The position numbers were made by a program, and so were the translations under genes. Of a stretch of 64,000 nt of DNA, positions 38,143-44,208 are shown in pieces (within the stretch, counting starts at the first letter, position 1; each line of letters starts with the position of its first letter). This DNA is from Betaproteobacteria bacterium HGW-Betaproteobacteria-6. Its GTDB lineage: Bacteria > Pseudomonadota > Gammaproteobacteria > Burkholderiales > Rhodocyclaceae. The stretch lies in contig PHCF01000001.1 of the NCBI GenBank assembly GCA_002842145.1, forward strand, positions 18,903 to 82,902, written 5' to 3'. The notes beneath the pieces are model-generated. The model was not told the origin of the DNA. It was given only the letters and a program-made list of their open reading frames with translations, and did not search any database.

Positions 38143-38206
38143 TCGCCGGTGCTTGCCGGGTGGCAAAGGTATAATTGCCGCCTTTCCGTATTTCCCAAGC
38201 CCAGCC

Positions 38207-39781
38207 GTGACTCCCCTCGATACTGAAATTGCCCGCCGGCGTACCTTCGCCATCATTTCCCACCCCGACGCCGGTAAAACGACACTGACCGAAAAGCTGC
38301 TGTGGTTCGGTGGCGCCATCCAGGTGGCCGGCGAAGTCCGCGCCCGCAAGGCATCGCGCCACGCGACTTCCGACTGGATGGAGCTGGAAAAGCAGCGCGG
38401 CATTTCGGTGACCTCGTCGGTCATGCAGTTCCCCTATCGCGAGTGCATGATCAACCTGCTCGACACGCCGGGCCACGAAGACTTTTCGGAAGACACCTAC
38501 CGCACGCTGACGGCTGTCGACTCGGCAACCATGGTCATCGACTCGGTGAACGGCGTCGAGGCGCAGACGATCAAGCTGCTCAACGTTTGCCGCATGCGCG
38601 ATACGCCGATCCTGACTTTCATCAACAAGCTCGACCGCGAGGGCAAGGAACCGATCGACCTGCTCGACGAAATCGAGTCGGTGCTCGGCATCCAGTGCGC
38701 GCCGATGACCTGGCCGATCGGCATGGGCAAGCGTTTCCGCGGCGTCTATCACCTCTACGACGACGCCATCGCCTTCTTCGATCCGCAGGCCGAGAAGGGT
38801 ACGGCCGAGATCATCCAGGGGCTCGACAACCCCCGTCTCGACGAACTGATCGGCGCGCAGGCCGACGAGTTGCGCATGGACATCGAACTGGTTCGCGGTG
38901 CTTCGCACGCCTTCGATGCCGAGGCTTACCTCAACGGCAAGCAGTCGCCGGTCTTCTTCGGTTCGGCGGTCAACAACTTCGGCGTGCAGAGCCTGCTCGA
39001 CGCCGTCGTCGATCTGTCGCCGGCGCCGATTGCCCGGCCGGCGGTAACCCGTCAGGTACTGCCGAACGAACCGAAATTCTCCGGTTTCGTGTTCAAGATC
39101 CAGGCCAACATGGACCCCAAGCACCGCGACCGCATCGCCTTCCTGCGTGTCTGCTCCGGCCGCTTCGAGCGCGGCATGAAGGTCAAGCAGGGCGCCGGTG
39201 GCAAGCTGCTGTCGGTCAACAACGCCATCACCTTCATGGCGCGCGACCGCAGCACGACCGACGAAGCCTATCCGGGCGACATCATCGGCATTCCGAACCA
39301 CGGCACCATCCGTCTCGGCGAAACCTTCACCGAAGGCGAAGAACTGCGCTTCACCGGCATCCCGTCCTTTGCGCCGGAACATTTCCGTCTTGCCCGCATC
39401 GCCAATCCGCTCAAGATCAAGCAACTGCAGAAAGGTTTGCAGCAGTTGGCCGAAGAGGGCGCAACCCAGCTGTTCCGGCCGCTCTCGGGAACCGACCTGA
39501 TTCTCGGCGCGGTGGGTACGCTGCAGTTCGACGTGGTGGCCAGCCGTCTGGAAAACGAATACGGCGTACAGGTCATTTTCGAGCACTACAACTGCGCCAC
39601 GGCGCGCTGGATTCAGGGCGATGCCGGCGAGCTGCGCCAGATTTCCGACCGCTACAGTGCCAACGTCGCGCTCGACGGGGCCGATGATCCAGTCTATCTG
39701 GCGCCGAACAATGTCTATCTGAACATGGTCAAAGAGAAGTATCCCAAGCTACGTTTCATGGAAGCACGCGAGGTAATCTGA
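38207..39781 (+). CDS. prfC: Peptide chain release factor 3
   Basis: [49 protein letters not shown] start. Confidence 0.95.
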
Positions 39782-39783
39782 GC

Positions 39784-40236
39784 ATGACCGTCCGGGTCCA
39801 GGAAGCCGATTTCGACCTTGGCGCCGAGTTGCTGGCGCTGCGGGCGGCTGACCCCCGGGTTGGCGCATTGGCCAGCTTTCTCGGGCTGGTCCGCGACATG
39901 AACGATGGGACCAGCGTTGCGGAAATGACCCTGGAACACTATCCCGGCATGACCGAAAAGGCACTCGAGGCAATCGTCGCCGAAGCCAAGGGCCGCTGGG
40001 ATATTTATGACGCGCTCGTCATCCACCGCGTCGGCCCGCTCAAGCCCTGCGACCAGATCGTGCTCGTCGCCGTGACCAGCGCCCATCGCGGCGAAGCCTT
40101 CGCTGCCTGCGAATTCATCATGGATTATCTGAAGACCCGCGCCCCGTTCTGGAAGCGCGAAGCGACGCCGCAAGGCGCGCGTTGGGTCGACGCCCGCGAT
40201 GCCGACGACAGCGCTGCAGCGCGCTGGCAGAAATAG
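39784..40236 (+). CDS. moaE: Molybdopterin synthase catalytic subunit MoaE
   Basis: GALASFLGLVRDMNDG; LEHYPGMTEKAL; RVGPLKPCDQIVLVAVTSAHRGEAFAACEFIMDYLKTRAPFWKRE. Confidence 0.93.
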   Translation: MTVRVQEADFDLGAELLALRAADPRVGALASFLGLVRDMNDGTSVAEMTLEHYPGMTEKALEAIVAEAKGRWDIYDALVIHRVGPLKPCDQIVLVAVTSAHRGEAFAACEFIMDYLKTRAPFWKREATPQGARWVDARDADDSAAARWQK

Positions 40237-40299
40237 CGCATTCACCGTGCCGCAGCGACGCTTGTTCGCTACGGCCGGGGCGACTGTTTTCGACTAATT

Positions 40300-40893
40300 C
40301 TAAATTCCCGACATCGGGATGAAGCCGGGCAGGGCCTTGATGCGTGCTATCCAAGCCCCGATATTCGGGTAAGGCTGGAGCGAGATGCTGCCTTCGTGGG
40401 CCAGTGCGATGTAAGGCATCACCGCGCAGTCGGCAATCGTTGGTCGATCGAGTGCCAGCCATTGATGCTTGGCGAGATGGGCTTCGATGACCGGCAGGAT
40501 GTTGCCGGCGCGCTTCACGGCATCGGCCTTGTCGATGGCGTAGCCGAATTTGTCGACCAGTCGGGCGGCGCCCGGACCATTCTGGATTTCATTGGCCGCG
40601 GTCGACAGCCATTGCATGACCTCGGCCATGCCGGCCGGGTCGCGCGGCAGCCAGCTTTCGTCGGCATATTTGCTGGCCAGGTAAACGAGGATAGCCTGTG
40701 AGTCGCGCAGTACCACCGGGGCATCGTCGAGGATCGGAACCTCGCCCAGCGGGTTGAGGTCGATGAGGGGCGCGCGCTTGTGCTCGCCGCCCATGAAATC
40801 GACTGGAACGATGTCCAGCGGAATGTTCGTCAATGCGGCAAACAGCCGAACCTTGTAGCAGTTACCAGAGGGTTCAAGATCGTACAGTTTCAT
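40300..40893 (-). CDS. Glutathione S-transferase family protein
   Basis: MKLYDLEPSGNCYKVRLFAAL; NPLGEVPILDDAPVVLRDSQAILVYLA. Confidence 0.88.
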   Translation of the reverse strand: MKLYDLEPSGNCYKVRLFAALTNIPLDIVPVDFMGGEHKRAPLIDLNPLGEVPILDDAPVVLRDSQAILVYLASKYADESWLPRDPAGMAEVMQWLSTAANEIQNGPGAARLVDKFGYAIDKADAVKRAGNILPVIEAHLAKHQWLALDRPTIADCAVMPYIALAHEGSISLQPYPNIGAWIARIKALPGFIPMSGI

Positions 40894-40896
40894 GTC

Positions 40897-41481
40897 TTAC
40901 TCCTTGGTGATGGATGTTGCGGAGAGCGGCGAAGAGCGGCTTTGCCACTCGCTTTCGGTAAAACGCGGAGTGATGTGGCGGGAGCAGTTCCAGTCGAAAG
41001 CGGCGATCCGGATGAGCATGATGCGCTCGACGTTGCTCCCGGGGAATTTCATTTTTGCCAATAATTTCGGGTTGACCGTAGCAAGCTCGACCATCTCGAC
41101 GTGACCCAATAATTTCAGGCGGCGCCGGTTCGGGTAATCCATCAGGATCAGCGCCGCTCGGTCATTTTTGGTCAGGTTGCCGACGCTGACGTACTGGCGG
41201 TTGCCGGATAAATCGGCAAAGGCCAGCGTGGTTGGGTCTAGTACCTGGAGAAACCCTGCCTGTCCGCCGCGATGCTGGACATGCGGCCAGCCGCTTTCGC
41301 CGACGGTGGCCAGGTAAAAACTGTCGCGGGCAGCAACGAATTCGCACTCGCGCGGGCCGAGTTCGACGACCGGTGTTTCGCTGATCTCTTCCAGTCCTTC
41401 ACCGAGGTCGCGTCCGCCATGGAGGCGCTGGCTGGCCCGGACGCTGGGCGTGTAGGCGATGGTGGCAAAGTGGCGGGACAC
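40897..41481 (-). CDS. Pyridoxamine 5'-phosphate oxidase-related FMN-binding protein
   Basis: DSFYLATVGESGWPHVQHRGG...RAALILMDYPNRRRLKLLGH; GTG start. Confidence 0.85.
   Translation of the reverse strand: MSRHFATIAYTPSVRASQRLHGGRDLGEGLEEISETPVVELGPRECEFVAARDSFYLATVGESGWPHVQHRGGQAGFLQVLDPTTLAFADLSGNRQYVSVGNLTKNDRAALILMDYPNRRRLKLLGHVEMVELATVNPKLLAKMKFPGSNVERIMLIRIAAFDWNCSRHITPRFTESEWQSRSSPLSATSITKE
41046..41084 (-). repeat. Dispersed GGTCAACCGG motif (in CDS)
   Basis: ATTTCATTTTTGCCAATAATTTCGGGTTGACCGTAGCAA. Confidence 0.85.
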
Positions 41482-41592
41482 GGCAGGTTTCCTTTTTGAT
41501 GCGGGAAAGCGGCAATCATCGGCTATGCAGCAATCGCAATAAATAGACTTATAGTTAGAATACTTATGCAAATAACGGTTTAATCTCGCCCA

Positions 41593-42531
41593 ATGGATAA
41601 ATTGCATGCCATGACCACCTTCGTGCGCATCGTCGAGGCCGGCAGTCTGACGGCCGCCGCCGATCGCCTGGGAACTTCGCCAACCTCGGTGGTGCGCAGC
41701 CTGTCTGGGCTCGAACGGGCGCTCGGGGTTCGCCTGCTCAATCGCACGACGCGACGCATGGCCTTGACCGACGAGGGGCGCGACTATTTCGAGCGTTGCC
41801 GGCATCTGCTGCAGGATGTCGAGGAGGCTGAAGCGGCCCTGCTCGCCCGTCAGGTCAAGCCGGCCGGACGCCTGGTCATCACCGCGCCGGTGATGTTCGG
41901 GCGCTTACATGTCGGTCCGGCCGTCACCGATTTTCTTGCCGCGTATCCCGAGGTGCGCATCGAGTTGTTGCTACTTGATCGCGTCGTCGATCTGATTCAT
42001 GAAGGCATAGACCTCGCCGTACGCATTGGTACGCTGCCTGAATCTTCGCTGGTCGCCGTGCCGCTCGGTACGACCGGCCGGGTTGTCTGTGCCAGCCCGG
42101 AATACCTGGCATTCCACGGTCAACCGGAAAATCCGGCCGAATTGCAAAAGCACCGGGCGATCCGAATTACCGGATCGAGTCTTGAACCGGACTGGTCGTT
42201 TCAGGAAAACGGGCGCCCGCTACGGGTGACAATGCCCGAGAACCTGAGCACCAATCACATCGATTTCGCCATCGACGCCTGCCTGAAAGGGCTTGGTTGC
42301 GGGCGATTTCTTGCCTACCAGGTACGCGAGCAACTGGCGGCCGGCAAGCTGGTTCGTTTGCTGAGCGCCTACGAGCTGCCACCGGAGCCGGTCAATTTCG
42401 CCTATCCCCACGCCCGTCTTTTATCGTCCCGGGTTCGCGCCTTTATTGATTGGGCGGCCCCGCAGCTCCGGGAAAAACTCATCGAAGCCCGCGATGTGGG
42501 CGACAGCGCCGTGGCGCGCTGGCAGAAATAA
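41593..42531 (+). CDS. LysR-family transcriptional regulator
   Basis: MDKLHAMTTFVRIVEAGSLTAAADRLGTSPTSVVRSLSGLERALGVRLLNRTTRRMALTDEG. Confidence 0.93.
   Translation: MDKLHAMTTFVRIVEAGSLTAAADRLGTSPTSVVRSLSGLERALGVRLLNRTTRRMALTDEGRDYFERCRHLLQDVEEAEAALLARQVKPAGRLVITAPVMFGRLHVGPAVTDFLAAYPEVRIELLLLDRVVDLIHEGIDLAVRIGTLPESSLVAVPLGTTGRVVCASPEYLAFHGQPENPAELQKHRAIRITGSSLEPDWSFQENGRPLRVTMPENLSTNHIDFAIDACLKGLGCGRFLAYQVREQLAAGKLVRLLSAYELPPEPVNFAYPHARLLSSRVRAFIDWAAPQLREKLIEARDVGDSAVARWQK
42111..42148 (+). repeat. Dispersed GGTCAACCGG motif (in lysR)
   Basis: ATTCCACGGTCAACCGGAAAATCCGGCCGAATTGCAAA. Confidence 0.65.
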
Positions 42532-42535
42532 AAAC

Positions 42536-42553
42536 GGGGAGCCAAGGCTCCCC
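42536..42553. terminator. Bidirectional hairpin between convergent genes
   Basis: AAAAACGGGGAGCCAAGGCTCCCCGGAAAAATATTT. Confidence 0.75.
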
Positions 42554-42573
42554 GGAAAAATATTTCCTTCTGA

Positions 42574-44208
42574 TCAGGTCTTGAACTGAGCCACCATCTG
42601 CCGCAACGAGGTGGACAGCTCCTGCATCTGGCGTGCCGCATCGGCCGTATGGCGAACAGCGAGAGCACTTTCCTCGGACATCTGGGCGATGACTTCGAGC
42701 TTCTGGGCGATTTCGTTGCTGGCCATGCTCTGTTCCGAAATCGAGTCGGAAATGCCGTTGACCACGACCGTCACGCGTAGCGCGCCGTCGCGAATGCGGT
42801 TGATCGAGTCGCCGGCCTGGTTGGCCAGTTCGACACCGTTGCTGACCTGACGGACGCCGTCCTGCATGCTGCTGACAGCGCTGCGTGTCCCGTTCTGGAT
42901 CTTGGCCACCATCTCGCCGATTTCCTTGGTCGAGTTTCCGGTGCGCTCGGCCAGCTTGCGCACTTCGTCGGCCACCACCGCAAAGCCGCGCCCCTGTTCG
43001 CCGGCGCGGGCAGCTTCGATGGCGGCATTGAGTGCCAGCAGATTGGTCTGGTCGGCAATTTCCTTGATGGTGTTGACGATGGACGTAATCTGATCGGACT
43101 GGTGTCCGAGATCCTCGATGATCTGTGAAGACGCCTGCACCGCATCGGAAATCTTGCGCATCTCGCTGGCCGCATTGTGAATGACAGATGCGCCATCTTC
43201 CGAGATTTCACCGGCGGTTTGCGAAATGCTGTGGGCTTCGCTGGCGTTTTCCTTGACCTGATCGATGCTGACCGCCATTTCCTCGACCGAGGCTGCCATC
43301 GAAGAAGCGGCGTCGCTCTGTTGGCTGGCTCGCACGGCAACCTGCTCGGATGCGCTAAGGAGCTGGGTGGCGGCAGTGGCCACCTGCTCGGCGTTGGCGA
43401 TGATGCTCGAGATCATGAAGCGCAGGGTTTCCTGCATGCTGCGGATGTTGGCGAGCAGGCTGTCCTTATCCTCGGGAGGACAGTCGACGGGCGTCGCCAG
43501 GTCTCCGGCGGCGATGCGCTTGGTGATGGCCGAGGCTACTGCCGGGTCGCCGCCCAGAGTCTTGACGATGTTGTTGGAGAGCACGAGCAGCGAGACGGTG
43601 ATGAAGCCGGCGATACCCAGCCCCCAGAGCAGAAGCTTGATGGCATCGCTACGGAACTTGGCATCGACATCGTCAATGTAGATGCCTGAGCCAATCACCC
43701 ATCCCCAGGGTTCAAAGCCCATGACAAAGGAAATCTTCGGAACGCCTTCTTCGGAGCCCGGCTTCGGCCATAGATAGTCGACAAAGCCGGAACCGTTGGC
43801 CTTGACCATCTTGTTGAATTCCTGGAACAGGAACTTGCCGTTCTTGTCCTTGATCTGGTCGAGCTTCTTGCCCTCAAGTTCGGGCTTGATCGGGTGCATG
43901 ACCATGGTGTCCTGCAGGTCATTGATCCAGAAATATTCAACCTTGTCGTAGCGCAGCGTACGGATGGCCGCAGCGGCGAATTTCTTGGCGTCGTCTACGG
44001 ACATTTGCCCGTCATGGGCGGATTTTTCGTAGAAAGTCAGAATGCCATGCGTGGATTCGACCAGATTGCGCACCTTGGCTTCACGGTCTTCCAGCATCTG
44101 ACTCTTGCCGTTGATCAGTATTGCCGAGAGCAAGGCAGTAAGTGCGATGACTGTGATGGCGGTCATGGCGAGCAACTTGCCGCGTAGGGTCATTCCTTGA
44201 TTGGCCAT
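42574..44208 (-). CDS. Methyl-accepting chemotaxis protein with periplasmic Cache-like domain
   Basis: sCache pattern [29 protein letters not shown] hairpin [47 protein letters not shown]. Confidence 0.92.

Follow-up and report, generated by a model that had tools for sequence, protein, structure and literature searches.

The 3' end of moaE repeated at a neighbouring lysR gene: a probable scar of cassette insertion into the moaE/MCP gap

In homology-facilitated illegitimate recombination (HFIR), incoming DNA is anchored by homology at one end and sealed by an illegitimate joint at the other, usually at 3-10 bp of microhomology; the resulting exchanges are kilobase-sized and have been described in the naturally transformable bacteria Acinetobacter baylyi, Streptococcus pneumoniae and Pseudomonas stutzeri (PMC3240628). 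In Vibrio cholerae, effector modules of the type VI secretion system (T6SS) are displaced and orphan immunity genes and 3' ends remain, and orphan 3' tips are likewise known for rhs genes (PMC5361080). A literature search returned nothing specific to the locus described here, which lies within a stretch of 64,000 nucleotides (hereafter the window) and in which moaE and a neighbouring lysR gene end in nearly the same sequence. Comparison with related genomes points strongly to an insertion scar: a three-gene cassette would have entered the gap between moaE and a chemotaxis gene, leaving the tip of the resident moaE at its far side.

The left homologous flank of the locus is prfC (38153-39781, plus strand; Pfam RF3_C and GTP_EFTU), encoding peptide chain release factor 3, whose position upstream of moaE is conserved across the genus, with most relatives matching it from about codon 14. 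The complete moaE (39784-40236, plus strand; Pfam MoaE, E 4e-39), encoding the large subunit of molybdopterin synthase, lies left of the cassette and its product is 97-99% identical to MoaE of the nearest relatives. The moaE-GST spacer (40237-40299) forms the left junction and aligns over its whole length with that of genome G090. The cassette itself is composed of genes encoding (i) a glutathione S-transferase-like protein (GST; 40300-40893, minus strand; Pfam GST_N and GST_C), (ii) a PNPOx-like flavin-binding protein (40897-41481, minus strand; Pfam PNPOx_N, E 5.7e-10), and (iii) a LysR-type regulator, whose body common to orthologues (residues 1-299; 41593-42489, plus strand) contains an N-terminal HTH_1 domain (E 3.6e-19) and a C-terminal LysR_substrate domain (E 5.2e-40). 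The PNPOx-like gene probably starts with the GTG at 41481, preceded by AAAGGAAA; the longest open reading frame (40897-41805), which overlaps lysR, is probably not real. Both minus-strand genes are divergent from lysR, and we infer that LysR probably controls them.

To the right, a stretch of microhomology identified by sequence comparison (TCGAAGCC at 42482-42489, plus strand; TTGAAGCC in the LysR orthologue and TCGATGCC in moaE) is followed by the relic left by the 3' end of the resident moaE (42490-42531, plus strand), which adds 13 in-frame residues, RDVGDSAVARWQK, and a stop codon to LysR. The next segment (42532-42573) corresponds to the native spacer between moaE and the gene of a methyl-accepting chemotaxis protein (MCP), the same spacer being present in the cassette-free genomes G053, G082 and G012; it carries a hairpin, CGGGGAGCC-AAGG-CTCCCCG (42535-42554; z = -4.4), with a terminator match on the MCP strand. 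The MCP gene (42574-44208, minus strand; Pfam MCPsignal and sCache_2) is the right homologous flank and is convergent to moaE and lysR, with clpB beyond it, downstream of the locus.

A repeat search of the window revealed a 49-nt direct repeat (40187-40235 and 42482-42530; 86% identity, spacing 2295), both copies of which reach a stop codon, that of moaE and that of lysR: MoaE (39784-40236) terminates in VDARDADDSAAARWQK and LysR (41593-42531) in IEARDVGDSAVARWQK. In a blastn search of the whole genome of origin (4.3 Mb) the moaE 3' end matched two places only, the second being the lysR end (E = 1.3e-9), which excludes chance similarity and bears out the resemblance reported in the first-pass annotation. 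The first 8-9 nt of the right copy, (A/G)TCGAwGCC, also belong to LysR itself, an orthologue lacking the tail having ATTGAAGCC at that position; the transplanted piece is therefore shorter than the repeat and comprises 42 nt (42490-42531), i.e., 13 codons and a stop. Of its 42 positions, this relic shares 35 with the window's own moaE and 37 with the end of moaE in a relative whose site is empty. The majority sequence of the relics from three genomes is slightly closer to empty-site moaE ends (37-38 of 42, TAA stop) than to moaE of the window itself (36 of 42, TAG stop).

Close LysR orthologues, defined by an E value below 1e-100, are present in 14 of 77 genomes of the genus. All 312 residues of the protein were matched only in the window genome, G074 (97% identity) and G075 (96%), the alignment with G076 extends to residue 307, through a stop codon, and alignments with the remaining orthologues end at residues 296-300. 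The orthologous proteins are 12-13 residues shorter and have stops of their own, after LIEAG in G017 and after LLESS in G003 and G090, which rules out the tail as the native LysR C-terminus. It had been proposed from the sequence alone that the tail is native to MoaE and foreign to LysR; this holds, as does its restriction to one lineage, since it occurs in three of the 14 orthologue genomes and moaE adjoins in each of them. An orthologue carrying the tail away from moaE was found in none of the 14 genomes. The same junction is present in the window genome, G074 and G075, and an assembly chimera is ruled out by its occurrence in the two further genomes, G074 being a single-contig assembly.

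The origin of the tail is indicated by empty sites. Across the genus, prfC and moaE are usually followed by a short terminator spacer and then by MCP, and 23 related genomes lack the cassette and have MCP as the immediate downstream neighbour of moaE. The moaE-to-MCP gap is 48-186 nt in the 16 genomes measured; in nine of these it spans 48-53 nt and in most cases contains the hairpin seen in the window, where the LysR tail likewise stands 48 nt from MCP. In G053, window blocks 38285-40235 and 42482-44028 map to one unbroken stretch and overlap by exactly the 49-nt moaE end, and the same overlap is found in G082, where prfC, moaE and MCP are continuous. Beyond the LysR stop, the sequence TAAAAACGGGGAGCC..GGCTCCCCG is that of the native moaE-MCP spacer and hairpin of the empty-site relatives, and the intact moaE of the window is now followed by TAGCGCATTC, which is cassette-side sequence. 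Since the LysR-side tail continues unbroken into the native terminator spacer and MCP, it is what remains of the 3' end of the resident moaE. The right-hand repeat is thus the resident moaE tip and the left-hand, complete moaE lies on the cassette side.

These observations bear directly on the idea, put forward in the first-pass annotation, that the moaE end was copied locally onto the lysR 3' end by a short gene conversion or by slippage. The 86% identity and the short distance between the copies would suit such copying, which should however have left LysR's own 3' flank in place, and the DNA past the LysR stop matches neither that flank nor the sequence that now follows moaE. It is instead the native moaE-MCP spacer, whose bases stand directly 3' of moaE in cassette-free genomes. 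Local duplication or gene conversion therefore fails as an account of the tail, and we regard it as extremely improbable.

The joint can be placed by comparing three sequences: the LysR orthologue of G017 reads ATTGAAGCC-GGGTGA, moaE reads GTCGATGCC-CGCGATGCC and the window reads ATCGAAGCC-CGCGATGTG, which locates the crossover within the 8-9 nt microhomology (TCGAwGCC). LysR has thereby exchanged its last codon or codons and its own stop for 13 moaE codons and the moaE stop. The microhomology between moaE and the end of the LysR orthologue is of the length typical of HFIR joints (3-10 bp). On the left side, prfC and moaE are continuous and homologous in filled and empty genomes. We lean, with modest confidence, towards HFIR as the founding event, since it gives the best mechanistic fit. 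The incoming DNA would have carried prfC/moaE, GST, PNPOx and LysR genes and paired with the resident chromosome at prfC/moaE, while the other side would have been sealed at the microhomology between the lysR end and the resident moaE end. The intact moaE would then derive at least partly from the incoming DNA, the resident moaE would have been lost except for its tip, and LysR, deprived of its own stop at the joint, would read 13 residues into the relic. The window's intact moaE groups in the moaE tree with cassette-free neighbours and not with G003/G090, which implies either a left crossover close to the moaE stop or a transfer among close relatives. Families DprA and ComEC are encoded in the genome; because they are found as well in bacteria for which natural competence is not known, they support competence only weakly, as a permissive trait.

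A different founding mechanism with the same relic anatomy is a tandem duplication of prfC-moaE, or of its 3' part, together with the cassette, arising by Campbell-type single-crossover integration or by unequal crossover. Later deletions would have cut the right copy down to the moaE tip in the window lineage and to a prfC fragment in G003/G090. The second moaE is reduced to 42 nt at the joint, which HFIR would predict, but a later deletion would give the same picture. This scheme accommodates the finding of two different relics, a moaE 3' end and a prfC 3' end, in lineages sharing the moaE-GST junction, but two separate joints explain the relic positions equally well. It also requires a longer intermediate and a subsequent deletion whose end fell in frame precisely at the microhomology; a complete duplicated prfC-moaE pair on the right side was not found in any of the genomes compared. 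We consider duplication a possible route, though a less probable one than HFIR.

In G003 and G090 the order prfC-moaE-GST-PNPOx-LysR is the same, LysR has its own stop, and it is followed directly by a decayed prfC 3' fragment (L095 10269-10433 in G090; L033 8107-8272 in G003) covering about codons 483-540 and 78-82% identical to intact prfC. Both filled lineages thus retain leftovers of the prfC-moaE pair at the right end of the cassette, and, as the moaE-GST spacer of G090 is homologous to that of the window, the linkage of moaE with the cassette probably arose once. Between LysR and the prfC relic of G090, a search for a moaE tip gave a few fitting bases (GACAGCGC), too short to decide.

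A precisely placed 2.3-kb insert between direct repeats, and the presence of the cassette at other loci in G017, G018 and G064, could suggest a mobile element, with the 49-nt repeats as attachment sites of a site-specific insertion or as the target duplication of a transposon. The Pfam assignments, however, place only GST, PNPOx-like and LysR genes in the insert, with neither recombinase nor transposase; G003/G090 are different at the right boundary, with a prfC fragment instead of a moaE tip after LysR, and the right repeat opens with 8-9 nt that were LysR's own already. An element of this kind is accordingly very unlikely. The GST/PNPOx/LysR trio was also observed as a group elsewhere in the chromosomes of nine further congeners (L034, L096, L035 and L097-L102), and in being kept together at such sites it behaves as a unit.

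Other insertions were seen in the moaE-MCP gap: L095 10480-13745 (G090), L124 6566-7390 on the reverse complement (G061) and L125 6041-7474 (G059). Judged from reading of the translations, these inserts contain PepSY-type and TonB-receptor-like genes, a PEP-CTERM-type VWA protein gene and an IS1182-like transposase gene; in G090 the PepSY-type and TonB-receptor-like genes, named in the same way, stand between the prfC relic and MCP. Changes in the gap seem to be frequent. A bolder proposal, which we put forward only tentatively and consider rather doubtful, is that the prfC-moaE/MCP gap is a recurrent Dechloromonas landing site for prfC-moaE-anchored DNA, where each arrival would leave a different resident relic and sometimes provide the incoming gene with a new C-terminus, stop codon and terminator. 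A motif like GCTACGGTCGACCGGAAAAANGGCCAAAATTGAAAT was noticed in several intergenic regions, namely after moaE (L103, L127), at about 8300 of L033 and near the GST end (L097, L098). When the window's genome was searched for it as a dispersed repeat, allowing at most 3 mismatches, one match was obtained; the motif is possibly a degenerate intergenic repeat.

The later history of the cassette is recorded in a mosaic pattern of divergence. Between the window and G074 divergence is 4.3% from moaE through the relic, compared with 10.4% in the upstream region and prfC, 13.3% in MCP and 8.8% in part of clpB (Fisher p = 9e-12 for the contrast), while between the window and G075 it is 6-7% throughout. 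The low divergence of cassette and relic relative to their surroundings indicates that they moved between lineages by homologous recombination, the breakpoints of the transferred tract lying near the 3' ends of prfC and of the MCP gene. The MCP tree unites the window with G075 and G057 and places G074 together with the cassette-free G053, G061 and G082; in the tree of the cassettes, the five that are linked to moaE form one fully supported group, apart from cassettes at other loci. The moaE tree sets G003/G090 apart from the window, as the MCP tree does G090. G057 is cassette-free yet sister to G075 in the MCP tree, so that a loss or a transfer is needed.

The 13-residue tail seems to be under little constraint. 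Across the three genomes its codons contain 3 nonsynonymous and 1 synonymous changes, compared with 11 and 47, respectively, in the body of LysR (p = 0.033); the corresponding moaE codons show 0 and 4, and the LysR and moaE tails differ with p = 0.14 on small counts. An AlphaFold model built from 14 sequences (mean pLDDT 86) predicts the tail to be unstructured, residues 302-312 being the only segment with pLDDT under 50, a weak prediction as the tail occurs in only two of the 14 sequences. The tail might nevertheless be a selected addition conferring a new property on LysR, e.g., the ability to contact MoaD or to respond to molybdopterin synthesis, and the reading frame is indeed kept in three genomes. 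The divergence time is short, however, which makes frame retention uninformative, and the mostly nonsynonymous changes at residues that MoaE keeps, together with the predicted disorder, speak against selection, which we judge to be very unlikely. In all likelihood the tail has no function of its own and is tolerated, giving LysR a stop codon together with a convergent terminator.

The event is ordinary and known in kind, and the evidence for it is unusually clear. With its empty sites, its relics of two kinds and its mosaic tract of transfer, the locus is a well-resolved natural example of a regulator and operon moved as a unit without a transposase or integrase, and of how such an insertion can at once create a chimeric protein end. 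For annotators, a C-terminal tail common to unrelated neighbours may be the relic of a resident gene and not a duplication or a functional motif.

Among described systems, the locus resembles HFIR in its short microhomology joint on one side and the kilobase scale of the insert, and on our reading it would also share the homology anchor on the other side and the replacement of resident DNA; it differs from the HFIR studies in being deduced from an old natural scar and in having a joint that fuses a reading frame to the tip of a resident gene. With the LysR-type regulators that have a divergent target operon it shares the HTH_1 and LysR_substrate domains and the divergent GST and PNPOx-like genes, but the LysR of the window bears 13 foreign C-terminal residues. 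As in the Vibrio T6SS and rhs loci, a new module stands beside a conserved anchor and the resident 3' end has been pushed downstream, and, as in the T6SS arrays, later spread by homologous recombination is seen, here in G074. Unlike those loci, which consist of competition genes, this one combines the housekeeping gene moaE with a metabolic and regulatory cassette, and its leftover is a 42-nt piece that is now a protein terminus.
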